Of a DNA stretch of 64,000 bases, positions 3,046 to 33,031 are shown one piece after another. The stretch is from Bacteroidota bacterium (GTDB taxonomy: Bacteria > Bacteroidota > Bacteroidia > JACCXN01): assembly GCA_013696965.1 (NCBI GenBank), contig JACCXN010000056.1, forward strand, positions 1 through 64,000, given 5' to 3'. Made by a program: the position numbers and the translations under genes. The first letter of the stretch is position 1; each line of letters opens with the position of its first letter. Below the pieces are notes generated by a model, which had not been told where the DNA came from, searched no databases, and worked only from the letters and a program-made list of their open reading frames with translations.

Positions 3046-3717
3046 TTAATTGTGTAAATCACTTAGAGCAATTAAACCCTTAAAGTCAATAATGTTAATT
3101 TTAGACTTTGTTGTTGATATTAGTTTCTCATTTCTAAAATCTGAAAGTAATCGGTTTACCGTTTCTTTTGCTGTGCCGGTGTAACAGGCCAGATCTTTTC
3201 TTGAAATAAAAAAAGAATCAGTTAAATTTTCATTTTTTTGATTGTATCTGTTAAATAAATTGATAAGGGCATCGGCAAGCCTTGCCTTAACTGGTTTGTA
3301 GGCCATATCTGCAATCCTGGTTTCTGCGTCTGAGAGTTCCTTTGAAAGGAGTAAAATAAATTGTTCGGAAATTTTATTCTGAGTATTTATTAATTTGCGA
3401 AAAACTTGTTTTTCAATGAAACCTATGGTAGTATCTTCCAATGCCTGGGAAGTAGAATTAAATTTCATGTTTACGGCAAGTTCAGTAAAATTCAATAAAT
3501 CACCCTGGATTGAAATTCTAATAATCTGTTCTTTTCCTCCACTTCCTGTTTTCCTAATCTTTACACTTCCTTTTTTTACAAAATAAGCCCCTAATGAAGA
3601 GCTTCCCTGGCAATAAATGAGTTGGTCTTTTTTAAATTTAAACTCATCAAACCCCTTATCATCCATATTAATTCCCAAAAAAGGCATTAAACTATAATTC
3701 GAATAAGTTGAAATCAT
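3046..3717 (-). CDS. Crp/Fnr-family transcriptional regulator
   Basis: A 223-residue regulator. The N-terminal cyclic-nucleotide-binding-like beta barrel covers about residues 25-120 (YFVKKGSVKIRK, then ISIQGDLLNFTELA). A long dimerisation helix follows (about 120-145). The C-terminal Crp-type winged helix-turn-helix is at about 170-215 (ISRKDLACYTGTAKETVNRL). The N-terminal Cys cluster of oxygen-sensing FNR is absent, so an iron-sulfur sensor is unlikely. The ligand cannot be told. It converges with the MazG-like gene. The targets are unknown, but the nearby DUF892 gene is a reasonable candidate because of proximity only. Confidence 0.85.
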   Translation of the reverse strand: MISTYSNYSLMPFLGINMDDKGFDEFKFKKDQLIYCQGSSSLGAYFVKKGSVKIRKTGSGGKEQIIRISIQGDLLNFTELAVNMKFNSTSQALEDTTIGFIEKQVFRKLINTQNKISEQFILLLSKELSDAETRIADMAYKPVKARLADALINLFNRYNQKNENLTDSFFISRKDLACYTGTAKETVNRLLSDFRNEKLISTTKSKINIIDFKGLIALSDLHN

Positions 3718-10211: not shown

Positions 10212-11837
10212 ATGAAAGACCTATGGTACCATAATGCAATTATATATGCCCTTGATGTAGAAACATATATGGATTCCAACGGAAATGGCATAGGAGACTT
10301 TGAGGGTCTTGTGGAAAAGCTTGATTATCTCTCAGGTCTGGGAGTAAATTGTTTGTGGTTAAGGCCGTTTTTTCCGTCTCCCTTGGTGGATGATGGTTAT
10401 GATGTGAAGGATTATTACAATGTTGATCAGAGGTTTGGGAATTTAGGGGATTTCGTTAATTTTACTACCAAGGCAACTACATACGGAATCCGTGTAATAA
10501 TTGATCTTGTTGCCAATCACACATCCGATCAGCATGAATGGTTTCAACAGGCAAGAATGGATGTAAATTCCAAATATAGGAATTATTATATCTGGGCAGA
10601 TAAACCCCTGGAGGAATATAAACAGGAAAATATCCTTAAAGAAGAGGGAATATGGCATTTTGATAAACAAGCAGGTGCCTATTATTTGCATCATTTTTAC
10701 AAAGAACAACCCGATTTAAATATTTCTAATCCCGAAGTTAGAAAGGAGATAAAAAAAATTATGGGCTTTTGGTTAAAACTAGGAATTTCCGGGTTTCGCA
10801 TTGATGCTGCTCATATATTAATTAGAGAAATTGGGAATGAAAAAATAAATACAGCCAAAGTACTCGATGTGCTTGATGAAATGAGAGAATTTATAAATAG
10901 CCGAAACAGTGAGGCTGTTTTACTTGCGGAGGCAAATGTGAAGGTAGATGAACTTCACCTTTTTTTTGGAAATGGAAAAAGAATGCATTTGCTCTTTGAT
11001 TTTATAACCAATAAAAATTTGTTTTTAGCAATGGCCAGGGAAGATCCCCAGCCTCTTATATCTGCATTAAACAATATTAGGGGTATAAGCGGCCAATGGG
11101 TTAATTTTTTACGCCATCACGATGAACTTAACCTGGAGATGCTTGAAGAGAGTCAAAGGAATGAAGTTTTTGAGGCTTTTGCACCAGAACAGGACATGAG
11201 GATTTATGGCCATGGGATAAGAAGAAGGCTTCCACCTATGCTAAATGGGGACAGGAAAAAAATGGAATTAATTTATTCAGTAATGTTTAGTTTACCAGGA
11301 ATTCCATTAATTAATTATGGCGAAGAAATAGCAATGGGCGATGATCTTAGCCAAAAAGGCAGATCGAGTGTTAGAACAATTATGCAATGGGATAATTTAA
11401 AAAATTCCGGTTTTTCAAAAGCTCCAGCCTTGATGCTTGAACATTCATTAATTGACTTTGGGGAATTTGATTATAAAAAGATAAATGTGAATGAACAACA
11501 AAACAATCCGGATTCCTTTTTAAATTGGATGCAGCGCCTTATTAGTACCAGAAAACAATGCCCACAATTGGGTTATGGACAATGGAGAGTACTTGAAAGC
11601 GACACAAAGTCTGTTTTCTCTTTTTATTGTGAATATGAAAAGGATAGAATTGTTTTATTGCATAATTTTAAAGGAGTTAAGTGTGATATAAAGCTGGATG
11701 GTTCAGTTAAAAAGTTTGAAAATTTGATTGAAATATTCAGCAACCGAAAATACCCTACAATTGAAACACTTAATGCTCCAATATCCATTGATGAGTATGG
11801 ATATAGGTGGTTTAAATGCAATGCAGGCTTTGAATGA
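10212..11837 (+). CDS. GH13 alpha-amylase family enzyme, trehalose-synthase-like
   Basis: A 541-residue cytosolic enzyme with a (beta/alpha)8 barrel over about residues 5-430 and a beta-sandwich at the end. The opening (LWYHNAIIYALDVETYMDSN then GIGDFEGLVEKLDYL) and DDGYDVKDYYNVD closely resemble trehalose synthase (TreS, GH13_16), which interconverts maltose and trehalose. The catalytic triad is present: Asp198 (GFRIDAA), Glu240 (LLAEANV), Asp304 (RHHDE), with DLVANHTSDQH as region I. TreS-type synthases commonly have this length. An alpha-glucosidase or a related transferase specificity cannot be excluded. The gene stands apart from the trehalose cluster at 25-33 kb and is followed by a strong hairpin. 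Confidence 0.8.
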   Translation: MKDLWYHNAIIYALDVETYMDSNGNGIGDFEGLVEKLDYLSGLGVNCLWLRPFFPSPLVDDGYDVKDYYNVDQRFGNLGDFVNFTTKATTYGIRVIIDLVANHTSDQHEWFQQARMDVNSKYRNYYIWADKPLEEYKQENILKEEGIWHFDKQAGAYYLHHFYKEQPDLNISNPEVRKEIKKIMGFWLKLGISGFRIDAAHILIREIGNEKINTAKVLDVLDEMREFINSRNSEAVLLAEANVKVDELHLFFGNGKRMHLLFDFITNKNLFLAMAREDPQPLISALNNIRGISGQWVNFLRHHDELNLEMLEESQRNEVFEAFAPEQDMRIYGHGIRRRLPPMLNGDRKKMELIYSVMFSLPGIPLINYGEEIAMGDDLSQKGRSSVRTIMQWDNLKNSGFSKAPALMLEHSLIDFGEFDYKKINVNEQQNNPDSFLNWMQRLISTRKQCPQLGYGQWRVLESDTKSVFSFYCEYEKDRIVLLHNFKGVKCDIKLDGSVKKFENLIEIFSNRKYPTIETLNAPISIDEYGYRWFKCNAGFE

Positions 11838-18795: not shown

Positions 18796-21700
18796 TCAAT
18801 GAATTGATGATTTAGACTGATTATTATTGTCAGCATTTACATTTGGGTTAACTAAATAATAAATCACAGGAACAATAAAGAGGTTAAGCACGGTTGATGT
18901 GAGCAATCCTCCAATTATAACTTTTGCCATTGGGCTTTGAATTTCATTACCAGGCAAATCGCTGGCCAGGGCAAGGGGAATCAATGCTAGGCCGGCAGTT
19001 AGAGCTGTCATTAATATAGGGCTAAGCCTGTCTTTGGATCCTTGTATAATTGTGTCAAACAAATTAAAACCTTCTTCTCTTAAAGTTTTATAGTGTGAAA
19101 CAAGTAAAATTCCATTTCGTGTAGCAATACCGAAAAGGGTAATAAAACCAATAATGGCTGGAATACTTAAAATTCCGCTTGTGAAAAAAATACTAAAAAC
19201 TCCACCAATTAATGCAAGTGGAAGGTTTAGCAAAATGATGGATGCAATTTTGAGGTTTTTAAACTCCTGGTAGAGCAGGAGGAAAATTACGAGTAAGGAG
19301 AGTAATGAGGTTACAAATAAGGTATTTGAGGCCGCCTCCTCAGATTCAAACTGGCCTCCATATTCAATATGATAATCAGAAGGAAAAGTAACCTTATTGG
19401 AGATAATTTCTTTTATTTCCTCAACGGCCCCTTTTTGGTCCCGGCCAGTAACATTAGCAGATACAACAGTTTTACGCTGAACTTTTTCACGGTTAATGGT
19501 ATTGGGACCAGAAGTACTTTCAATGTCTGCTATATAATGAAGGGGTATTTTAAAAGTTGAATTTTGACTATTTGAAGGCCCATATGCATCTATTAAAGTG
19601 TTTTTAATATTTTCAATTTTACCTCTGTTGGCATTATCAAAGCGAAGTATTAAATCAAAGGTTTTGTTCCCTTCATATATTTCAGCAACTTTTTCTCCGG
19701 CAAAAGCCACATCAACAAAAGTATTAAATGCACCAATAGTGATTCCATAATGATTTAATAATTCTCGTTTAGCCTTAATTTGCACTTGTGGAATTTCAAT
19801 TTGTTGTTCAACACTCACATCAACAAGTCCCTCAATGTTTTGGATTTTATTTTTGATTTCATTGGACAAAATAAAAAGTTGATGCAAGTCAGGTCCGAAT
19901 ATTTTAATGGCAATGTTTGCCCTTGTTCCAGACAACATATGGTCAATTCTATGACCAATTGGTTGTCCAATGGTAATATTTGTACCTGTTACTCCTGCAA
20001 GTTTTTCCCTGACCTCTTTCATGAATTCCTCACGGCTTCTTTTGTCAAGAACAAAAGGAGCATCAATTTCAGAAGAATTAACGCCCTGTGCATGTTCATC
20101 CAATTCAGCTCTTCCGGTTCTTCTTGTTGTAATTTGAATTTCAGGAACAGTGAGTAAAGCTTTTTCCACTTGTATGCCTATTTTATTGCTTTCTTCTAAA
20201 GAAATACCAGGTAAACTCACTGAACTTACCACAAGTGAACCTTCGTTAAATTCTGGAAGAAAACTCCTTCCTAATTGTGTTAAGGTAAAAAGAGCAATTA
20301 AGAATAAAACAAATGAAAATACAATTACTGTTTTCTTCACATGCATTATTTTAATAAGTGCCCAGGAATACAATTTTTGAAGCCTTTCTACCAGCCAACT
20401 TTCTTTATGGTGTTTTTTTAACATTTTATCATTTGTTAGTAGAAAGCTACAAAGTACTGGAGTTAGTGTAATGGAAACAATCAATGAAGCAAACAGGGAA
20501 ACAATAAAGGCAATGCCAAGAGGAGCCAAAAGTTTTCCTTCCATTCCCGAAAGAAAGAAAAGAGGAATAAATGCAACAATGATAATAAAAGTGGCATTGA
20601 TAATGGATGTTCTGATTTCAACCGAAGCATCAAAAATAACCCTGAGTTTATTGCTTTGTTCCTTTACAGGCTTTAAAGCGTTCTCCTTAAGCCGCTTAAA
20701 AACATTTTCTACATCAATAATAGCATCATCTACCAATGCGCCAATAGCGATTGCCATTCCTCCTAAACTCATTGTATTTATTGTAAAACCAAGCCATTGC
20801 AATGTTAAAATCGCAGTTATTAATGAAATGGGAATAGCTATTAATGAAATTACTGTTGTTCGCCAATTCATTAAAAAGATGAAAAGAATAAGCACCACAA
20901 AAATGCTCCCTTCCAATAGTGTTTTTTTTATATTGCTGATGGATGCGTTAATAAAATCAGCTTGTCGGAATATTTTTGTATTTATTCTGACGTCTTTTGA
21001 TAAATTATTTTGAATATCAGCAATAGCATTATCTATTTCTTCGGTTAGTTTCAGGGTATTAGTGCCAGGTTGCTTCATTACGGTCATTATCACAGCAGGA
21101 TTGCCATTTAATGACCCATCACCAATTTTGATGGATGAACCAATTGTAACATTAGCAAGATCTTCAATTTTTACAGGTTTTCCATTCACCATTTTCACAA
21201 CAGCTTTTCCAATTTCTTTTACATCATTTGTTCTCCCTATCCCTTTTACTATATATTCATTATTATATTCATTCATAAATCCACCCGAAGAATTTCCATT
21301 GGTTTGTTTACTTGCAATTAATAATTCAGAGAGTGTAACTGAGTAAAAGTTCATTTTTTGAGGGGAGGCAAGAATTTGGTATTGCTTGTATTCACCACCA
21401 ATTACAACAACTTGAGCAACACCACTTGTGGCTAATAACCTGGGCCTTATAACCCAATCAGCAAGGGTTCGTAAATCCATTAAAGATGTGCTGTAGGCTG
21501 TTAAACTAATAAGCATAATTTCTCCCATTATTGAGGATTGAGGTGCCAAAACAGGGTTGCCAGCTCCCTGAGGAAGCCTTTGTGCTACAGTTGCAATTTT
21601 TTCATTTATTATTTGTCTTGCCTTAAAGATGTCTGTATTCCATTCAAATTCAACCCAAACAATTGAAATCCCTGCAGAAGATGAACTTCTAACCCTGCGT

Positions 21701-21936
21701 ACATTTGTTCCTCCATTCACTGATGCTTCAATTGGAAAGCTAATTAGCTTTTCTACTTCTTCCGGGGCCATTCCATGGGCTTCTGTTAAAACCACAACAG
21801 TAGGAGCAGTGAGATCAGGAAAAACATCAACTTCCATGCGTGAGGCCACGAATGAACCGAATAGAATGAGAAGTACAGACCCTACAATTATCAGGAGGCG
21901 ATTGCTTAATGAAAAGTTGATTATTTTATTGAGCAC
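18796..21936 (-). CDS. RND efflux permease, CzcA/CusA-like
   Basis: A 1046-residue inner-membrane antiporter with the twelve-helix, two-fold RND layout. Hydrophobic blocks are near 12-30, 342-470, 525-550 and 870-1030. Porter domains carry the usual phrases (VFPDLTAPTVVVLTEAHGMAPEEVE; LPGISLEESNKIG). The central TM4 proton-relay motif, which is DFGxxxDGAxxxxEN in classical heavy-metal members, reads AIGALVDDAIIDVEN at 397-411, so the first Asp is replaced. Many Bacteroidota members share this variant. Starts at GTG 21936. Metal export is inferred from the His-rich partners in the operon. Drug export cannot be ruled out. Confidence 0.9.
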   Translation of the reverse strand: MLNKIINFSLSNRLLIIVGSVLLILFGSFVASRMEVDVFPDLTAPTVVVLTEAHGMAPEEVEKLISFPIEASVNGGTNVRRVRSSSSAGISIVWVEFEWNTDIFKARQIINEKIATVAQRLPQGAGNPVLAPQSSIMGEIMLISLTAYSTSLMDLRTLADWVIRPRLLATSGVAQVVVIGGEYKQYQILASPQKMNFYSVTLSELLIASKQTNGNSSGGFMNEYNNEYIVKGIGRTNDVKEIGKAVVKMVNGKPVKIEDLANVTIGSSIKIGDGSLNGNPAVIMTVMKQPGTNTLKLTEEIDNAIADIQNNLSKDVRINTKIFRQADFINASISNIKKTLLEGSIFVVLILFIFLMNWRTTVISLIAIPISLITAILTLQWLGFTINTMSLGGMAIAIGALVDDAIIDVENVFKRLKENALKPVKEQSNKLRVIFDASVEIRTSIINATFIIIVAFIPLFFLSGMEGKLLAPLGIAFIVSLFASLIVSITLTPVLCSFLLTNDKMLKKHHKESWLVERLQKLYSWALIKIMHVKKTVIVFSFVLFLIALFTLTQLGRSFLPEFNEGSLVVSSVSLPGISLEESNKIGIQVEKALLTVPEIQITTRRTGRAELDEHAQGVNSSEIDAPFVLDKRSREEFMKEVREKLAGVTGTNITIGQPIGHRIDHMLSGTRANIAIKIFGPDLHQLFILSNEIKNKIQNIEGLVDVSVEQQIEIPQVQIKAKRELLNHYGITIGAFNTFVDVAFAGEKVAEIYEGNKTFDLILRFDNANRGKIENIKNTLIDAYGPSNSQNSTFKIPLHYIADIESTSGPNTINREKVQRKTVVSANVTGRDQKGAVEEIKEIISNKVTFPSDYHIEYGGQFESEEAASNTLFVTSLLSLLVIFLLLYQEFKNLKIASIILLNLPLALIGGVFSIFFTSGILSIPAIIGFITLFGIATRNGILLVSHYKTLREEGFNLFDTIIQGSKDRLSPILMTALTAGLALIPLALASDLPGNEIQSPMAKVIIGGLLTSTVLNLFIVPVIYYLVNPNVNADNNNQSKSSIH

Positions 21937-22043
21937 TTATTTCTCTTTTTAATTAATAATACTTTCAGAAGATTTAAAACTTGAATAAAATAGTTTAGAA
22001 TTTCAATTGTTAATTTAAATCCTCAGCAATATTCAAAATTCCA

Positions 22044-23546
22044 TTAATGTTCGTGTCCATGTGCTGGTAAAGTGCCAGAGGCGGTGGATAACTTAATTTG
22101 ATAAGCTCCCTTTGTTACTATCCTTTCTCCTTCATCAACACCACTTAAAACCTGAACATTTAACCCATCACTTGCACCAATTTTTACTTCGCGTTTTTGA
22201 AAACTTTCCCCGGCAGTTTGCACATATACAAAAAAGTTTCCTTGCTCTTCAATTAAAGCGGAAATGGGAATTACCAATGCATTTGGAATGGGTAATGATT
22301 TCAGGTAAACCTCTACAACTGATCCAGGAATGAGAGATCCAGTGTTTTCAATTTCAAAAGTAATGGGAATGAATGGAGAATTGGCAGATGCGCTTTTTCC
22401 ATAAGTAATAACTTTACCATTTAACTCCTGAGTGCTATAAATTGCTTCGTTTCCAGGTAATTTAAAATTGGCAGAATGAATGGATGGCAGTTTTTCAAAA
22501 TATTTTTGTGAAATATTGGATTGAAGAATAAGCTTTTTATTTTTTGAAAGGGTTGCCAATGGTGTTCCCGCTTCAACGAATTGTCCTTCATTGACCAAAA
22601 TATTTTTAACAAAACCATTAATAGGAGATGAAATCAATTGCCCTCCTGCGGAATAATTTTTTGAAATTGTGTTAAATACAGTTTGCGCCTGGTCAAAATT
22701 AAGTTTGATGTTTAGAAAATCTTTTTCAGAAACGATTTTGTCCTCCACCAATTCCTTTGCACGTTCATAATCGGCCTTTGCTTTTTCGAAATTTATTTTT
22801 GCTTCCTTGTATTTTGCATCGATGTTTCCTTGAGCTAAGTCACCACCTGTAACGGTAAATAAATTTGTTCCTGCCATTACTTCTGAACCGATAATTGTAT
22901 TATTTCCAGAAAACAAAACAATTCCACTGGCCTTTGCAGTAACAATCATTTCATCACCAGGAGCAGCCAAAATTTCACCGCTGGTTTTAATAACCTCATT
23001 AAAAGTTTTCTTTTCTAAAGGTGTATTTGCAAATTCAACTTTCCATGCTTGTTCTTTTAAATATGGAATGTCATCTGCCGTTTCTTCTTTTGTTTGGGCT
23101 ACTAATGCCGATTTTTCATCAGTAAATACCATCACATTTTCAATACTCACACGATCCGTAAAATTCGGGGTTTTAATATCGAAAATGAGTTTCCCTTTAC
23201 CTGCTGTAGTAGGGGATAAACTTAAACGGAAAATCCCGGGAGAACTTGGTTTATTAACCGTGTTTTTTATCCCCTTGTTATTTAAAATTAAACTAACAGT
23301 TATTTCTCCCTCCTTTAAAGGATAGAAGTTTTCACCCAATACTGTAATGTGTGCAGTAAAGTTGGAAATTGAATTTAAAACCAGGGGTTTAAACTCAACA
23401 AACAATTCTGTTTTGTCTGAATAAATTGTAAAAGAAAGAGGATCAAGGCCCTTTGTTCCTTGTTCATGAGCATTTTCATGGGAATTGTTATTACACCCTA
23501 TCAAAATGCTTATTAAAAGGGTGAAAAATAGTATTTTACTTCTCAT
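22044..23546 (-). CDS. RND periplasmic adaptor lipoprotein, CusB/CzcB-like
   Basis: A 500-residue membrane-fusion protein. The lipobox LIGC (Cys at about 18) ends the signal segment, followed by a His/Asn-rich linker (NNNSHENAHEQG). An extra N-terminal beta domain (about 40-150) precedes the usual barrel-sandwich hybrid (GEILAAPGDEMIVTAKASG; ISSPINGFVKNILVNEGQFV), a helical hairpin (AKINFEKAKADYERAKELVE) and a membrane-proximal domain. The C-terminus ends in HGHEH, a potential metal site. The extra N-terminal domain and the His-rich tail fit heavy-metal adaptors. Located between the His-rich lipoprotein and the permease. Confidence 0.88.
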   Translation of the reverse strand: MRSKILFFTLLISILIGCNNNSHENAHEQGTKGLDPLSFTIYSDKTELFVEFKPLVLNSISNFTAHITVLGENFYPLKEGEITVSLILNNKGIKNTVNKPSSPGIFRLSLSPTTAGKGKLIFDIKTPNFTDRVSIENVMVFTDEKSALVAQTKEETADDIPYLKEQAWKVEFANTPLEKKTFNEVIKTSGEILAAPGDEMIVTAKASGIVLFSGNNTIIGSEVMAGTNLFTVTGGDLAQGNIDAKYKEAKINFEKAKADYERAKELVEDKIVSEKDFLNIKLNFDQAQTVFNTISKNYSAGGQLISSPINGFVKNILVNEGQFVEAGTPLATLSKNKKLILQSNISQKYFEKLPSIHSANFKLPGNEAIYSTQELNGKVITYGKSASANSPFIPITFEIENTGSLIPGSVVEVYLKSLPIPNALVIPISALIEEQGNFFVYVQTAGESFQKREVKIGASDGLNVQVLSGVDEGERIVTKGAYQIKLSTASGTLPAHGHEH

Positions 23547-25183: not shown

Positions 25184-26203
25184 ATGACAAGAGTTGCAAT
25201 TAATGGACTTGGACGTATAGGCCGGGCTGCTTTTAAAATTATAATGAACACAAAAGAATTGGAACTAGTAGCTGTAAATGATATTTCTTCTCCCGATGAT
25301 ATTCTTTATTTACTAAAACACGATTCAGTTTATGGAATTTATGATAAATTTCTGGAATACAACAAGAACAGCAATGAAATAAAAATTGACGGAAAAATCA
25401 TTAAAGTTTACAGCGAAAAAGAACCTGTAAACTTGCCCTGGAAAGAACAAAATATTGACATTGTTTTTGAATGTTCAGGAAAGTTCACAAATAAGCAGGA
25501 TATGCAAAAACACCTTGATGCTGGTGCAGAATATGTAATTCTTTCTGCCCCTGGCAAAGGTGATAATATTCCAACTGTTATTCCCGGAGTAAACGAACCC
25601 AACTCAGAAGATAGATTAATTTCCACTGCCAGTTGCACAACAAACTGTATTGCACCTGTTATGGAAATAATGGACCGCAATATTGGAATTAAAAAGGCTA
25701 TTATGACCACAATTCATGCTTATACTTCATCTCAGGCTGTTGTTGATATGCCGAATAAAAGCAGAAGAAGAGGAAGGTCTGCCGGGCTTAATCTTGTACC
25801 TACAAGTACTGGAGCAGCCAAGGCAACCTCAAAAGCTTTACCTCAATTCGAAAATATTTTTGACGGTGTAGCAATCAGAGGACCTGTTCCCTCAGGATCA
25901 ATAGCTGATATTACCTTAATTACAAATAGAGATACCTCTGTGGAGGAGATTAATAAAATTTTCCAGCAAGAATCAATTAGCAGACGCTATGATGGTATAC
26001 TTGGTACAACAGGCGAGGATTTGGTTTCATCGGATATTATCAAAGATCCCAGGGCTTCAATTGTAGATACTCAAATGACAATGGTGGTTGACGGCAACCT
26101 GGTGAAGATTATGAGCTGGTATGATAATGAATGGGGATACGTAAATCAAATGGTAAAAGCAGGCATTAGCCTGGCACAAAAGATAAAAGAACCTGTTTCT
26201 TAA
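25184..26203 (+). CDS. gap: Glyceraldehyde-3-phosphate dehydrogenase, type I
   Basis: Glycolytic enzyme converting glyceraldehyde-3-P, NAD and Pi to 1,3-bisphosphoglycerate. The Rossmann motif INGLGRIGRAAFK opens the protein. The catalytic Cys is residue 151 in STASCTTNC, and the assisting His is residue 178 (TTIHAYTSSQ). The adenine-ribose Asp33 (VNDIS) points to NAD use. Length 339 is normal. First gene of a five-gene plus-strand cluster; the next gene starts 18 bases later. A second gap may exist elsewhere in the genome, as many Bacteroidota have two. Confidence 0.95.
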   Translation: MTRVAINGLGRIGRAAFKIIMNTKELELVAVNDISSPDDILYLLKHDSVYGIYDKFLEYNKNSNEIKIDGKIIKVYSEKEPVNLPWKEQNIDIVFECSGKFTNKQDMQKHLDAGAEYVILSAPGKGDNIPTVIPGVNEPNSEDRLISTASCTTNCIAPVMEIMDRNIGIKKAIMTTIHAYTSSQAVVDMPNKSRRRGRSAGLNLVPTSTGAAKATSKALPQFENIFDGVAIRGPVPSGSIADITLITNRDTSVEEINKIFQQESISRRYDGILGTTGEDLVSSDIIKDPRASIVDTQMTMVVDGNLVKIMSWYDNEWGYVNQMVKAGISLAQKIKEPVS

Positions 26204-26221
26204 TTCTGTAAATTTTCGGTG

Positions 26222-27154
26222 ATGATAGTAACTTTAACTGTTAACCCAGCATTGGATATTTACACAAGCGTTGATCAAATTGAGTCAAACAAAAAGTTAA
26301 AATGTGCCCCTTCACGCATGGATCCTGGAGGTGGAGGAATCAATGTTTCCAGGGTTATCCAGAGACTTGGTGGAAAATCTTTAGCCATTTATACCAGGGG
26401 AGGGTATACTGGAAAAATGTATAGTGAATTACTGGACAAGGAAAATGTAAACCAGGATCCTGTAGATGTCAAAAATGACCTAAGGCAAAACTTTGCTGTA
26501 AGGGAAACTTCGAGTGGGAATTTGTTCCGCTTTGGTATGCCGGGTGCAGTTTTAGAAGAAGCTGATTATCAAATTATTTTAGAAAAAATTGAACACTATA
26601 ATAAGGCTGAATTTTTAGTAGTAAGTGGCAGCTTACCTCCTGATGCCCCACATGATTTTTATGTTCAAGTTGCCAAAAAAGCAAGAATCAACAAACAGAA
26701 ATTTATTTTGGATACATCTGGTAAAGCATTATCAGGAATACTGGAGGAAGGTGCATATCTTATAAAGCCCAGTATTGATGAACTTAAGGATTTAACAGGA
26801 GAAAATGCAGAGGATGAACAAGAACAAAGAAATTTGTTACTAAAAGTAATAGAAAACTATGATGTCAATATTATTGTTCTTTCACTTGGTGCAAAAGGGG
26901 CATTAGTGGCAACACAAAACAGAGTTGATCATTTTCAGGCACCTTCTGTGGAATCAAAAAGTTCAATTGGTGCAGGAGACAGTATGGTGGCAGGAATTGT
27001 ATTTAGTTTGGCTCAAGGAAAGTCCTTAACAAAAGCTGTTTTATTTGGACTTGCCTGCGGAAGTGCTACCATTAAAACTCCCGGTACACAACTACTTTAT
27101 AAACAAGATGCAGAACAACTCTATAATGAGCTGATTTCTTTGCAGTTAAAATAA
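26222..27154 (+). CDS. PfkB-family hexose-phosphate kinase (1-phosphofructokinase / Pfk-2 type)
   Basis: A 310-residue ribokinase-fold enzyme. The N-terminal substrate motif TVNPALDIYTSVDQI and RMDPGGGGINVSRVIQRLGG are typical of the 1-phosphofructokinase, tagatose-6-P kinase and Pfk-2 group. The C-terminal anion hole and catalytic base are in SSIGAGDSMVAGIVFSLAQG (Asp in GAGD). The exact substrate (fructose-6-P or fructose-1-P) cannot be decided by reading. Context with gap and pgi favours fructose-6-P. The start is the ATG at 26222, one codon after a GTG. A true PfkA lies at 49930. Confidence 0.88.
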   Translation: MIVTLTVNPALDIYTSVDQIESNKKLKCAPSRMDPGGGGINVSRVIQRLGGKSLAIYTRGGYTGKMYSELLDKENVNQDPVDVKNDLRQNFAVRETSSGNLFRFGMPGAVLEEADYQIILEKIEHYNKAEFLVVSGSLPPDAPHDFYVQVAKKARINKQKFILDTSGKALSGILEEGAYLIKPSIDELKDLTGENAEDEQEQRNLLLKVIENYDVNIIVLSLGAKGALVATQNRVDHFQAPSVESKSSIGAGDSMVAGIVFSLAQGKSLTKAVLFGLACGSATIKTPGTQLLYKQDAEQLYNELISLQLK

Positions 27155-27168
27155 TAATTAATATAAGT

Positions 27169-28839
27169 ATGGAAAAATTAACTGAAAATTCTGTCTGGCA
27201 AGAACTTACAGCACATTATCAAAAAACAAAAAAACTTGAAATAAAAGAGTTGTTTGAAAATGATTCTCAACGGTTTAATAAATTTTCAATTCAACACGAA
27301 AACCTGTTGGTTGACTTTTCAAAAAACAGAGCAAATGAACAAACTATTGCCTTATTATTGGAATTGGCAAAAAGCAGGAATGTTCATAAGGCTATCAATG
27401 ACCTGTTTTTAGGAGAAAAAATCAATTTAACTGAAAAACGATCTGTTCTTCATACTGCTTTAAGAAATTTTTCACACGAGCCGATTTCTGTAAATGGAAA
27501 AGATGTAATGCCCGAAGTTTTTAAGGAAAGGGAACAAGTGCGAAGGCTTTCAGAAAAAATAAGAAATCAACAGTGGAAAGGATTTACAGGGAAAACGATA
27601 AACTGTTTGGTAAACATTGGAATAGGAGGTTCGTATTTAGGTCCAAGAATGGTAACTGAAGCATTAAAAGATTATGAAAATACCACTATTCAGATTGAAT
27701 TTATTGCAAATATTGATGGCGCAGATTTACGCCAAGCCCTTAAAAATACCGATCCTGAAACAACACTTTTTATCGTTTCTTCCAAATCATTCAATACTCC
27801 CGAAACATTAATCAATGCTTCCATTATTAGAAATTTGTTAATGACAAGATTTCAGGATGAAAAGGCAATTGCTTCACATTTTATAGCCATAACTGCAAAT
27901 CCTGAAAAAGCAATGGAATTTGGAATTCCTTATCAAAACATATTAAAATTATGGGACTGGGTAGGCGGTAGGTTTTCTATTTGGTCTTCGATGGGTTTTG
28001 TTTTGGCAGTACAAATAGGTTATGCCCGTTTTGAAGAATTTTTAGAAGGAGCAAACGATATGGATGAACATTTTAGAAACACACCTTTAAATAAAAACAT
28101 TCCTGTTATTCTTGCCCTTTTAGGAATCTGGTACAATAATTTTTTTAATGCTCAAACATATGCTTTGCTGCCTTATAGCCAGCATCTTCGTTTACTGCCT
28201 GCTTATTTTCAACAGGTTGATATGGAAAGCAATGGAAAAAGTGTATCTAAATCCAATGAAATAATCGATTATTCAACTGGTCCTGTTATTTGGGGACAGC
28301 AAGGAACAAACGGCCAACATGCTTTTTTTCAACATTTGCATCAAGGCACAAAAATGATTCCTTTTGATTTAATTGGTTTTGTAAACAGTATGGAAGAATA
28401 CGAACACCATGACGAACAACATGAATTTCTATTTGCCAATTTATTAGCCCAATCAAAGGCGTTTGTTGAAGGAAAAAATTCAACCCAATTGCTGGATGAA
28501 CTGTTATCAAAAGGATTTTCCACCGAGGAAGCAAAAGGTTTGCTATTACACAAATCATTACAAGGAAACCATCCTCACAATGTGATACTTTTTGATCAAT
28601 TGAATCCCAGGAACCTTGGAATGGTTATGGCCATGTACGAACATAAAATTTTTATACAAGGAATTATTTGGGACATTAATTCTTTTGATCAATTTGGAGT
28701 AGAACTCGGAAAAGAACTTGCCGATGATTTAATGCCCTATTTAAAAAATGAAAGGGAGAATGATAATTTGGATAATTCTACAAAGGGTTTGATAAATTTT
28801 TATAGAAACCAAAGATTCAGTATAAAGGCAAATTTATAA
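27169..28839 (+). CDS. pgi: Glucose-6-phosphate isomerase
   Basis: Interconverts glucose-6-P and fructose-6-P. A 556-residue long-form enzyme. Signatures seen are VNIGIGGSYLGPRMV, FIVSSKSFNTPETL, DWVGGRFSIWSSMGFVLA and the active-site stretch GTNGQHAFFQHLHQGT, and the late FDQFGVELGKELADDL. The gene starts 14 bases after the kinase. It supplies or drains the G6P used by the beta-PGM and trehalose steps encoded downstream, which explains its presence here. Confidence 0.95.
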   Translation: MEKLTENSVWQELTAHYQKTKKLEIKELFENDSQRFNKFSIQHENLLVDFSKNRANEQTIALLLELAKSRNVHKAINDLFLGEKINLTEKRSVLHTALRNFSHEPISVNGKDVMPEVFKEREQVRRLSEKIRNQQWKGFTGKTINCLVNIGIGGSYLGPRMVTEALKDYENTTIQIEFIANIDGADLRQALKNTDPETTLFIVSSKSFNTPETLINASIIRNLLMTRFQDEKAIASHFIAITANPEKAMEFGIPYQNILKLWDWVGGRFSIWSSMGFVLAVQIGYARFEEFLEGANDMDEHFRNTPLNKNIPVILALLGIWYNNFFNAQTYALLPYSQHLRLLPAYFQQVDMESNGKSVSKSNEIIDYSTGPVIWGQQGTNGQHAFFQHLHQGTKMIPFDLIGFVNSMEEYEHHDEQHEFLFANLLAQSKAFVEGKNSTQLLDELLSKGFSTEEAKGLLLHKSLQGNHPHNVILFDQLNPRNLGMVMAMYEHKIFIQGIIWDINSFDQFGVELGKELADDLMPYLKNERENDNLDNSTKGLINFYRNQRFSIKANL

Positions 28840-29076
28840 AAAACAGGTTTTAACACTTGTAATAACCTTTCATGTTTTAGAAGGAAAAACAATATTCAAT
28901 TCTATCGATAAAATAGGTCCCCGTGTTGTCAAAAAACAATAGGTTTTATTTTTAAATAATAAAAAAAGAAGCGAATAATTGAAACTCAAAAACAAAAAAT
29001 AGCGAAATGGATTACTTTAAGTAATAGTTAAGATGATAAATGATAAGAATCTGTAAATGAACTTGAACAATTATAT

Positions 29077-30603
29077 ATGAAAAATAATTTACAAGCTGCA
29101 ATTGTTGATCTTGATGGGGTAATTACCAACACTGCAATTCAGCATGCAAAGGCTTGGAAGATTATGTTCGATCAATACAACAAACAAAGAGAACAAGAAG
29201 GAAACAAAAAGTTTCTCCCCTTTTCTATAGAATCAGATTATCCTAAATATATTGATGGTATTCCAAGATATGATGGTGTTCGGGAATTTTTAAAATCTAG
29301 AGAAATAGAAATTCCTTATGGAGATCCTAAGGATAATGCTGGAAAAGAAACGATTTGTGGATTGGGAAACTGGAAAAACGAACTTTTTCATAAAGTAATA
29401 AAAGATGAAGGGATACAGGTGATCGAAAAAAATATAGAAGCAATAAAAAATTGGAAAAAGCTTGGATTAAAGACTGCTGTAATTTCATCCAGCAAAAACT
29501 GTAAGCAAATTCTTGAAGCTACGGGATATGAATATTTGTTTGACACACGTGTAGATGGTATTATTTCAGTAGAAAGAAACATAAAAGGCAAACCAGCCCC
29601 GGATATATTTTTGGAAGCAGCCAGGGAATTAAATGTAAAACCTGAAAATGCACTGATTGTGGAAGATTCACTCGCTGGAGTTGAAGCCGGCAAAAAAGGG
29701 GATTTTGCACTTGTTGTTGGAATAAAGAATGGTTCAAATACAGCAGAATTGTTAAAAAAAGGGGCAGATGAAGTAGTTGACAATCTACAACAGGTTGATA
29801 TTAACCTTAAAAAGGCAAAATTACCCAAGTATTTACCACTTGCTATTAAACATATTCCAGAACTCAAAGAAAAGTTTAAAAATAACAAAGCCCTTTTATT
29901 TCTTGATTTTGACGGAACATTAGCTCCTATTGTTGAATTTTTCGAGGATGCTGCAATGTCTGAGGAAATGAAGGAGCTTTTGGAACGATTAGCTTCTAAA
30001 TACCAGGTAGCAGTAATAAGCGGAAGAGGGCTTAGTGATGTAAAAAACAGGGTTGGATTAAACAATATTTATTATGCAGGAAGCCACGGCTTTGAAATTT
30101 CTGGACCAAATGGTTTTTACCAGGAACATGAACTTGCCCATAAAATAATCCCTGTTTTTGATGTATTAATACCTGAATTGAATCAAAAACTAAAATCAAT
30201 TCCTGGGCTAAAATTGGAAAGAAAAAAATTCACTCTTGCCGTTCATTACCGCCAGGTTGCTCAAGAAAAGCAACAAGAAGTAATTGATGCAGTTGAAAAT
30301 GCCTTAAAAAAACACAGGGAAGTAAAAGCAGGAAAAGGAAAAAAAGTGATTGAGATTCGCCCAAATATTGATTGGGATAAAGGAAAGGCAGTTTCAATGT
30401 TAATTCATAAGCTTGACCACTCAAAAAATGAGTATTTACCGGTTTATATCGGAGATGACATTACAGATGAGGATGTATTTATTATACTGGATAATGGACT
30501 AGGTATACTCGTAGGGGAGCATGGAAGCCAAACCTATGCCGATTATTACCTGAGGGATGTTCAGGATGTTCAGAATTTTTTAAACCAATTGTTAATCGAA
30601 TAA
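29077..30603 (+). CDS. Beta-phosphoglucomutase / trehalose-6-phosphate phosphatase fusion
   Basis: A 508-residue two-domain HAD protein. Residues 1-245 are beta-phosphoglucomutase-like: nucleophile Asp11 and acid Asp13 (VDLDGVITNTA), cap residues DGIPRYDGVREFLKSR, then ISSSK, GKPAPDIFLEAAREL and VEDSLAGVEAG. Residues 270-508 are a trehalose-phosphatase: Asp277 and Asp279 (LFLDFDGTLAPIV), ISGR, GSHGFEI, and YIGDDITDEDVF. Reactions expected are G6P to beta-G1P interconversion and trehalose-6-P to trehalose. This order matches the first two domains of mycobacterial OtsB1. The 3' neighbour starts 7 bases later. Confidence 0.9.
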   Translation: MKNNLQAAIVDLDGVITNTAIQHAKAWKIMFDQYNKQREQEGNKKFLPFSIESDYPKYIDGIPRYDGVREFLKSREIEIPYGDPKDNAGKETICGLGNWKNELFHKVIKDEGIQVIEKNIEAIKNWKKLGLKTAVISSSKNCKQILEATGYEYLFDTRVDGIISVERNIKGKPAPDIFLEAARELNVKPENALIVEDSLAGVEAGKKGDFALVVGIKNGSNTAELLKKGADEVVDNLQQVDINLKKAKLPKYLPLAIKHIPELKEKFKNNKALLFLDFDGTLAPIVEFFEDAAMSEEMKELLERLASKYQVAVISGRGLSDVKNRVGLNNIYYAGSHGFEISGPNGFYQEHELAHKIIPVFDVLIPELNQKLKSIPGLKLERKKFTLAVHYRQVAQEKQQEVIDAVENALKKHREVKAGKGKKVIEIRPNIDWDKGKAVSMLIHKLDHSKNEYLPVYIGDDITDEDVFIILDNGLGILVGEHGSQTYADYYLRDVQDVQNFLNQLLIE

Positions 30604-30610
30604 AAGGACT

Positions 30611-33031
30611 ATGGAAGAATGGATAATTAAATATTCAGAATACATTCCTGAGAAAGAACTTTTAAGAGAGGCTTTATGTACTGTGGGTAATGGTTATTTT
30701 GCAACACGGGGAGCAGCAGAGGAAAGTCAACCGGGAAAAAATCATTATCCTGGAACTTATCTGGCAGGTGGATACAATCGATTAGAAACCGAAATTGCAG
30801 GTAAAATAATAGAAAATGAAGATCTTGTAAACTGGCCCAATTGGACTATTTTAAAATTTAAGCCCGAAAATGGAACATGGTTAGACATGGATAAATTTAC
30901 AATTCTTAGTTATGAACAAGATCTGAATTTAAAAGAAGGGATTTTCGAACGTAGAATTCATTTTAAGGATGAGGAAAAAAGGGAAACAAAGCTTGTAACA
31001 CGAAGAATAGTAAGCCTAAGAAATATGCATTTAGCTGCTATTGAATGGGAACTAACACCTCAAAACTGGTCGGGAAATATAACCCTGCATTCTGCATTGG
31101 ATGGCTCTGTTATTAACAATGGAGTTGAAAGATACCGTGAATTAAACAGCAAACATTTAATACCATTGGAAAAAGGGCATTTTGAAGAAGATTGCATTTT
31201 TTTAAAGGTAATGACAAATCAATCAGAAATTGTAATGGCTCAGGCAGCAGCAACAACTGTATATTTTGATCAATACGATTCCCCTATAACAAGAACCACT
31301 GTGTTGGAAGAGGCTTACATAGGGCAGGAATTAACTTTTGCAGCAGAAGTTAATAAAACCATTAAAATAGAAAAGATTGTTGTAGTGTATACTTCTAAGG
31401 ACAAAGCAGTTTCAGAGCCCTTAAGTGAAGCTAAAAAAGAAGTTAAGCGTACGGGTAATTTCCAAAAAATCAAACAGGACCAAATTGCAGAGTGGAAAGA
31501 ACTTTGGGATCAATGTGATATTCTTTTGGAAGCAGATGACTCCGAAGATCAATTGTTGCTTCGCTTTCACATATTCCATCTTTTTCAAACCTATTCATTA
31601 AACACTATTGATCTTGATGCAGGCATACCTGCCAGAGGATGGCATGGTGAAGCATACAGAGGACATATTCTTTGGGATGAACTTTTTATTTTTCCATTCT
31701 TTAACATTAGTATTCCTGAGCTCACACGCTCGTTGCTTATGTACAGGTATAGAAGATTACCAGAGGCGCGTTTTGCAGCTACCAACAACGGTTACCAAGG
31801 TGCAATGTTCCCTTGGCAAAGTGGTAGCAATGGGAGGGAAGAGAGTCAAGTAATTCACCTGAATCCGGAATCTGGAAGATGGGTTGATGACAATACTTAT
31901 TTGCAAAGGCATGTGAATTCAGCCATTGCTTACAACATTTGGCAATACTTTGAAACAAGCGGTGACCTTGAATTCCTATCTTTTTATGGAGCGGAGCTTT
32001 TAATGGATATAACAAAATTTTGGGCAAGTAAGGTTATTTACAATAAAGACAGAAAGCGTTACGAGATCCATAATATAGTTGGCCCCGATGAATATCATAC
32101 CCACTATCCAGGATCATTGGAAATAGGCTTAAGAAACAATGCCTATACTAATGTAATGGTAGTATGGACTCTCATTCATGCCCTTAAAGCAATGGAAAGG
32201 CTGGACAATAGAAGAAGAAATGAACTGATGCATAAATTAAACATAAATCAGGAAGATATTTCCCGTTGGAATAACATTAGCAGGAATATGTTTGTTCCAT
32301 TTATTAATCAAGGAACCATAATTGAACAATTTGAAGGATTTGAAAATTTAAAAGACCTTAATTGGGAAGAATATCATACTAAATATGGAGAAATGCTTCG
32401 TTTGGACCGGATACTTGAAAAGGAAGGAGATGAAGTAAATAGGTATAAGGCTGTAAAGCAAGCAGATGTTTTAATGCTCTTTTACCTTTTCTCAACAGAG
32501 GAATTAACAGAGTTATTCGAACATATGGCTTATGATTTTAACCCTTATGAATCAATTCCTCTGAATATTGACTATTATGAGAAAATTTCGTCACATGGTT
32601 CCACATTAAGTAAACTGGTTTATTCCTGGGTATTCGCGCGTACTCACAGGGAAAAATCATGGCATCATTTTAAAAAGGCACTACTTAGTGACTTTAAAGA
32701 CGTGCAGGGAGGAACTACACCTGAAGGTATTCATTTAGGGGCCATGGCAGGAACCATTGATCTTATCCAAAGGTGTTATACAGGAATAGAGTTCAGAGAA
32801 GAAGAACTCTTTTTTAATCCCCAACTGCCTGAAAACGTGAAGCAAATTAAATTCCGGCTACGCTATAGAGAGCACTGGCTTGAAGTGAAATTAACCAAAG
32901 ATAATTTGTACCTCAAAAGCCATGGAGGTTGGGAAAATGAAATAAGAATTATTGTTGGTGGACAAGCCTTTTTAATGCGAAAAGGGGAAGAAAGGGTAAT
33001 TGATTATGCTAAACATATGATTGGAAGTTGA
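30611..33031 (+). CDS. Glycoside hydrolase family 65 phosphorylase (trehalose/trehalose-6-P-type)
   Basis: An 806-residue enzyme. An N-terminal beta-sandwich (about 1-290) leads to an (alpha/alpha)6 barrel with GH65 blocks GWHGEAYRGHILWDELF, GAMFPWQSGSNGREES, NPESGRW and, at the catalytic acid, VGPDEYH with Glu494. The phosphate-handling region is HGSTLSKL. GH65 phosphorylases cleave trehalose, trehalose-6-P, maltose or kojibiose to beta-G1P and a sugar, reversibly. Next to a beta-PGM, a trehalose-type substrate is likely. Acceptor (glucose or G6P) cannot be read. The layout matches the C-terminal domain of mycobacterial OtsB1. Confidence 0.9.
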   Translation: MEEWIIKYSEYIPEKELLREALCTVGNGYFATRGAAEESQPGKNHYPGTYLAGGYNRLETEIAGKIIENEDLVNWPNWTILKFKPENGTWLDMDKFTILSYEQDLNLKEGIFERRIHFKDEEKRETKLVTRRIVSLRNMHLAAIEWELTPQNWSGNITLHSALDGSVINNGVERYRELNSKHLIPLEKGHFEEDCIFLKVMTNQSEIVMAQAAATTVYFDQYDSPITRTTVLEEAYIGQELTFAAEVNKTIKIEKIVVVYTSKDKAVSEPLSEAKKEVKRTGNFQKIKQDQIAEWKELWDQCDILLEADDSEDQLLLRFHIFHLFQTYSLNTIDLDAGIPARGWHGEAYRGHILWDELFIFPFFNISIPELTRSLLMYRYRRLPEARFAATNNGYQGAMFPWQSGSNGREESQVIHLNPESGRWVDDNTYLQRHVNSAIAYNIWQYFETSGDLEFLSFYGAELLMDITKFWASKVIYNKDRKRYEIHNIVGPDEYHTHYPGSLEIGLRNNAYTNVMVVWTLIHALKAMERLDNRRRNELMHKLNINQEDISRWNNISRNMFVPFINQGTIIEQFEGFENLKDLNWEEYHTKYGEMLRLDRILEKEGDEVNRYKAVKQADVLMLFYLFSTEELTELFEHMAYDFNPYESIPLNIDYYEKISSHGSTLSKLVYSWVFARTHREKSWHHFKKALLSDFKDVQGGTTPEGIHLGAMAGTIDLIQRCYTGIEFREEELFFNPQLPENVKQIKFRLRYREHWLEVKLTKDNLYLKSHGGWENEIRIIVGGQAFLMRKGEERVIDYAKHMIGS

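Follow-up and report, generated by a model that had tools for sequence, protein, structure and literature searches.

Two adjacent genes of a Bacteroidota bacterium appear to encode three activities that meet at trehalose-6-phosphate (T6P). They lie in a 64,000-nucleotide stretch of contig JACCXN010000056.1 (assembly GCA_013696965.1), called the window below. The first gene (29077-30603, plus strand; 508 residues) fuses a β-phosphoglucomutase (bPGM) domain to a trehalose-6-phosphate phosphatase (TPP) domain. The second begins 7 bases later (30611-33031, plus strand; 806 residues) and encodes a protein of family GH65, a predicted trehalose-6-phosphate phosphorylase (TrePP). We consider it fairly probable that the pair works as a three-activity module with net flux toward trehalose, the fused TPP serving both OtsA and TrePP.

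In the proposed scheme, bPGM would interconvert glucose-6-phosphate (G6P) and β-glucose-1-phosphate (bG1P), TrePP would reversibly combine bG1P and G6P into T6P and phosphate, and TPP would hydrolyse T6P to trehalose and phosphate. The net flux, 2 G6P + H2O -> trehalose + 2 Pi, would need no UDP-glucose and would be drawn forward by the irreversible phosphatase. An OtsAB protein whose own phosphatase is apparently dead would provide a second supply of T6P through its OtsA half; the fused TPP would be the working OtsB for both. The physiological role would be an energy-cheap supply of trehalose under stress. We infer activities, direction and role from what the sequences display: domains, catalytic residues, a specificity fingerprint, genome content and distribution.

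Domains and predicted substrate

The original prediction, a bPGM/TPP fusion followed after 7 bases by a GH65 protein with Glu494 in GPDEYH, is borne out by the open reading frames, the domains and the residue. The bPGM domain (residues 1-245; 29077..29811, plus strand) was assigned from Pfam and NCBIfam models, a PDB match and a residue alignment. The bPGM-family HAD match spans residues 6-214; TIGR02009 scores 153.1 bits against a cut-off of 153.35, and the bPGM equivalog TIGR01990 falls below its own (102.1 against 189.4). The best PDB match is the β-phosphoglucomutase 8h5s (214.9 bits). Residues D8, D10, T16, H20, G46, R49, S114, K145, E169 and D170 of the Lactococcus lactis active site align with D11, D13, T19, H23, G61, R64, S137, K172, E196 and D197 of the fusion. 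The only change at a site residue is K45 to D60, as in 8h5s; the catalytic DxD, His, Arg, Lys and ED are all kept.

The TPP domain (residues 263-508; 29863..30603, plus strand) was assigned from the TIGR00685 equivalog (191.6 bits over residues 271-506; cut-off 68), a motif alignment and its nearest solved structure, Mycobacterium tuberculosis OtsB2 (5gvx). Its HAD-IIB catalytic motifs are intact: DFDGT, SGR, K435 and GDDITDED. The GH65 protein has all three Pfam domains of its family (65N, 65m and 65C), and the general acid Glu494 is invariant among the homologues compared. Its best PDB match is 9lb6 (473.7 bits), which the depositors named a trehalose-6-phosphate hydrolase. At the level of sequence comparison, these matches to solved structures are decisive for the folds of all three.

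Which sugar does the GH65 enzyme use? De Beul et al. found that positions 64, 392, 394, 402, 416 and 585 (CsKP numbering) tell GH65 specificities apart, and confirmed this at the bench (PMC8537180). TrePP carries DQGQDE at these positions; the other fingerprints are KV[MF]NES for maltose, EEAP for kojibiose, TRIGPP for trehalose and FAITQA for oligo-nigerose phosphorylases (PMC8537180). A Caldithrix abyssi enzyme, CaGP, predicted from its fingerprint, produced T6P from bG1P and G6P (PMC8537180). The window enzyme reads DQGQDE (D71, Q403, G405, Q413, D427 and E605). Five of these six assignments are independent of the alignment. Counting back from a conserved His makes position 416 D427, and the gapped alignment makes it W424, an ambiguity shared with 9lb6 and with the Lactiplantibacillus GH65 beside pgmB. 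GH65 phosphorylases bind phosphate through Lys, Ser-Ser(Thr) and His (PMC8626586), and the window enzyme keeps this site as K616 (KQAD), S664/T665 (HGST) and H708 (EGIH). Where a TPP adjoins or is fused to GH65 (13 loci), the fingerprint is DQGQDE nine times, DQAQDE once and SQGQDE three times.

Because the fingerprint and the phosphate-site residues agree, we predict with good confidence that the substrate is T6P. The same residues led us to reject maltose, kojibiose, nigerose and trehalose phosphorylases, and GH65 hydrolases, as candidates. A GH65 restricted to maltose or kojibiose had been named as a finding that would weaken the synthetic route; the fingerprint predicts TrePP instead.

OtsAB and the direction of flux

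The original prediction had trehalose made without an OtsA synthase. A genome search for otsA overturned this: the single GT20 domain of the genome (G000) belongs to a 742-residue OtsAB fusion (C94:97607-99676; L038:9602-11830) with intact GT20 motifs in its OtsA half. A missing OtsA was therefore rejected. The predicted chemistry, from bG1P and G6P through T6P to trehalose, is coherent with the TrePP fingerprint, but it cannot stand in for a missing synthase in a genome that has otsA.

The phosphatase half of this OtsAB is degenerate. It reads FLNHDNSIF for FLDxDGTxx, SNM for SGR and GNDRNDED for GDDxTDED, and its 100.8 bits are the lowest among 24 TPP matches. A second Bacteroidota genome with the fusion, G456, has an OtsAB (C17:73224-75296) in which the nucleophilic Asp is replaced by Gly (LGYDGT) and the GT20 half looks intact. 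Judged by its residues, the module TPP is thus the only intact T6P phosphatase in G000 and G456. In 19 sampled Bacteroidia genomes lacking the bPGM, TPP and GH65 triad, 20 of 20 TPP domains keep the nucleophile, so that its loss in this sample is restricted to genomes carrying the bPGM-TPP fusion. The split of 2/2 against 0/20 has a probability of 1/231 if loss is independent of the triad, relatedness not being controlled. Relatives of G000 and G456 at the order level lack TPP altogether, hence the loss cannot be dated. Nor can one loss be told from two, because the GT20 tree leaves both OtsABs in an unresolved group with intact ones.

The bPGM equilibrium favours G6P. The sum of bPGM, TrePP and an irreversible phosphatase would, we infer, be favourable overall. 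In the T6P-forming direction TrePP reaches 109 U/mg, and its equilibrium constant is put at 760 toward T6P (PMC13121652). In bPGM-deficient L. lactis, TrePP makes T6P out of bG1P and G6P (PMC7608592).

Several points weigh against a synthetic role. The equilibrium constant is a computed estimate, and the known role of the Lactococcus TrePP/bPGM pair in vivo is catabolic. OtsA was found in all four triad genomes tested, so T6P formation there does not depend on the TrePP route, and Litoribacter has one intact OtsAB copy beside an altered one. The negative results count for synthesis instead. No GT20 was found in six plasmid records carrying related genes, a search that did not extend to the host chromosomes. 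The genome gave no full-length GH37 trehalase, just a partial match of 19.6 bits, in a search that was not exhaustive for other trehalase families; likewise no trehalose phosphotransferase system (PTS) occurs among the scanned neighbours, with PTS and trehalose kinases not exhaustively sought.

As far as found, then, T6P in this genome arises from OtsA or TrePP only. Degradation is less likely because there is no full-length GH37, because T6P arises only by synthesis and because the phosphatase would compete. Since synthesis fits every part, we prefer two T6P sources draining through one phosphatase.

The main rival keeps the same enzymes and turns two of them around. OtsA would be the sole physiological source of T6P and the fused TPP its partner, while TrePP and bPGM would return excess T6P to G6P and so control how much T6P is present and how carbon flows at the G6P node, next to glucose-6-phosphate isomerase (PGI). 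Intact OtsA-half motifs next to a degenerate OtsAB phosphatase half suit this recycling as well, TrePP is catabolic in L. lactis (PMC7608592) and a 2025 review classes it as a T6P-degradation enzyme (PMC12125463). We still think it unlikely, if a serious contender: it would run a futile cycle burning UTP-derived T6P, the estimated equilibrium lies toward T6P (PMC13121652), and plasmids carry the module without otsA.

We find Lactococcus-like catabolism of trehalose or T6P, in which TrePP would phosphorolyse T6P, bPGM would feed bG1P to glycolysis and TPP would act as a brake, improbable. The shared fingerprint with the Lactiplantibacillus GH65 beside pgmB and the glycolytic genes upstream speak for it. 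It requires a PTS or kinase to provide T6P, neither of which is seen near the module, and the decay of the OtsAB phosphatase implies that the module TPP is needed for synthesis. The braking phosphatase, offered as an alternative in the original prediction, does not hold up well either: fused, intact and fully conserved, it would compete with phosphorolysis. That GH65 uses another glucoside (maltose, kojibiose, nigerose, trehalose or glucosylglycerol) and its link to TPP is incidental is very improbable, for although the family is polyspecific and position 416 depends on the alignment, the five robust positions fit TrePP and not the maltose, kojibiose, trehalose or oligo-nigerose types.

Distribution and known systems

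The distribution given here is based on plasmid records and a genome set, and it probably under-counts chromosomal copies in other phyla: a scan of genome contigs with two narrow patterns from the fusion alignment returned only Litoribacter. In the Bacteroidia samples GH65 occurs in 3 of 396 genomes, every time alongside bPGM and TPP, and Litoribacter populi is a fourth Bacteroidota genome with the module. There bPGM and TPP have a gene each and GH65 comes next, with all three adjacent; in G456 bPGM and TPP are fused, as in the window. Fused, split or OtsB1-like, the module spans Bacteroidota, Alphaproteobacteria, Legionella and Actinomycetota. The two-gene arrangement is not due to chance, since it recurs in other genera and phyla.

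Close parallels are plasmid modules of Croceicoccus, Indioceanicola and Legionella lytica, in which a bPGM-TPP fusion precedes an overlapping or adjacent GH65 gene. Identities to the window are 38-47% (bPGM), 41-46% (TPP) and 44-54% (GH65). Unlike the window module they are plasmid-borne without otsA, and the Legionella fingerprint is DQAQDE. Rubrobacter plasmids carry TPP and GH65. In Chlorobia, bPGM-GH65 fusions occur without TPP, most with Ala at position 394; one genome (L032; G071:C41) has a second kind of bPGM-GH65 fusion in addition to the usual one, and its WQSGSDGQEETQ loop resembles that of Nitrobacter. At the Nitrobacter locus (Nitrobacter hamburgensis plasmid 2; L050:10496-11272), a bPGM-GH65 fusion with DQGQDE precedes a non-TPP HAD-IIB phosphatase; this locus may make a different product.

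TPP-associated proteins form a cluster in the GH65 tree, requiring 3 changes, fewer than any of 500 shuffles; near-copies contribute to the result. In the TPP tree the triad enzymes group with M. tuberculosis OtsB2, apart from the TPP domains of OtsAB proteins. Bifunctional OtsAB, present once in this genome, shares the final step from T6P to trehalose, but it needs UDP-glucose.

How do the two genes compare with better-known systems? TrePP (EC 2.4.1.216) and pgmB of Lactococcus and Lactiplantibacillus likewise place a DQGQDE GH65 beside a bPGM, with the same two reactions at the node of G6P, bG1P and T6P. In Lactococcus, however, a PTS supplies T6P, and the Lactiplantibacillus GH65 (37% identical to the window enzyme) has no TPP beside it. 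The window differs from a catabolic TrePP/bPGM pair in having a TPP, fused to bPGM and adjoining GH65.

The original prediction also called the pair a split mycobacterial OtsB1. The OtsB1-type Mycobacteriales proteins compared were those of Rhodococcus plasmids (L051, L060 and L061), not Rv2006 itself. They share the TPP-GH65 order, the GH65 lineage and the TPP motifs, and this part of the claim stands. They differ in being one polypeptide, where the window has two open reading frames rather than three regions on one chain, and in their fingerprint (SQGQDE). Moreover, their bPGM is a remnant or absent. Because the first HAD region, where present, lacks the bPGM catalytic motif, they are not simply the window pair joined. 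OtsB1 is reported to lack TPP activity and to have an unknown function (PMC11046441).

M. tuberculosis OtsB2, which partners an OtsA, falls in the group of triad TPPs, joined to Rhodococcus at 100/100. Residues 86-153 of 5gvx, in its N-terminal HAD region, align to the C-terminal part of the window bPGM domain, although no catalytic bPGM motif aligns and there is no GH65. This suggests that OtsB2 may descend from a bPGM-TPP fusion after loss of the mutase active site.

Neighbourhood and meaning

Upstream on the plus strand lie genes for type I GAPDH (25184..26203; TIGR01534 above cut-off), a PfkB-family hexose kinase (26219..27154; TIGR03168 above cut-off, the closest equivalogs below theirs) and PGI (27169..28839; NF001211 above cut-off), with gaps of 15 and 14 bases. 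The original prediction placed the module in one glycolytic operon with pgi. The same-strand trio is there, but an AT-rich spacer of 237 bases (28840..29076, plus strand) parts PGI from the fusion, so a single five-gene operon is left as a possibility; a separate promoter may lie in the spacer. A promoter and terminator scan, ill-suited to Bacteroidota, scored no better than shuffled sequences. Glycolytic neighbours are absent beside the homologous loci of Litoribacter and G456, and a conserved glycolytic operon in Bacteroidota was rejected on that account. PfkB, GAPDH/PGK or phosphoketolase genes do recur near some plasmid copies.

Plasmid GH65/bPGM loci (L046, L047, L050, L060, L061, L063-L065 and L068-L070) have recurrent stress, metal and carbon neighbours: universal stress proteins, phosphoketolase, PfkB, GAPDH/PGK, hydrogenase, Crp/Fnr-type regulators and copper or heavy-metal efflux. 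In the window, an AcrB-family RND efflux pump with a CusB/HlyD-like adaptor lies a few kilobases upstream of the module (18796-23546), and a Crp/Fnr-type regulator about 22 kb upstream (3046-3717, minus strand). The plasmid neighbourhoods and the window efflux genes may mark a low-oxygen or metal-stress island. A GH13 enzyme 17 kb upstream (10212-11837) is nearest to trehalose synthase (its 536.8 bits against TIGR02456 fall short of the cut-off, 678.35) and possibly interconverts maltose and trehalose.

The component families are known. We did not find their arrangement as a synthetic module in the open-access literature, and other papers may have described it before. A 2025 review on T6P metabolism places TrePP under degradation only and has no bPGM-TrePP-TPP route among trehalose pathways (PMC12125463).

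By textbook stoichiometry, the bPGM-TrePP-TPP route uses no UDP-glucose. If the synthetic reading is true, TrePP, bPGM and a phosphatase would thus together supply a major stress protectant at lower cost. The wider proposal, a nucleotide-sugar-independent trehalose route that is mobile across phyla, likely gave rise to OtsB1 and took over the OtsAB phosphatase step in some hosts, seems to us evenly balanced. The last part would be an unusual functional takeover, with one half of a bifunctional enzyme apparently dead where a second phosphatase exists. OtsB1 (Rv2006) of M. tuberculosis is among the DosR-regulated genes (PMC2867773), and the module offers a concrete hypothesis for this protein.

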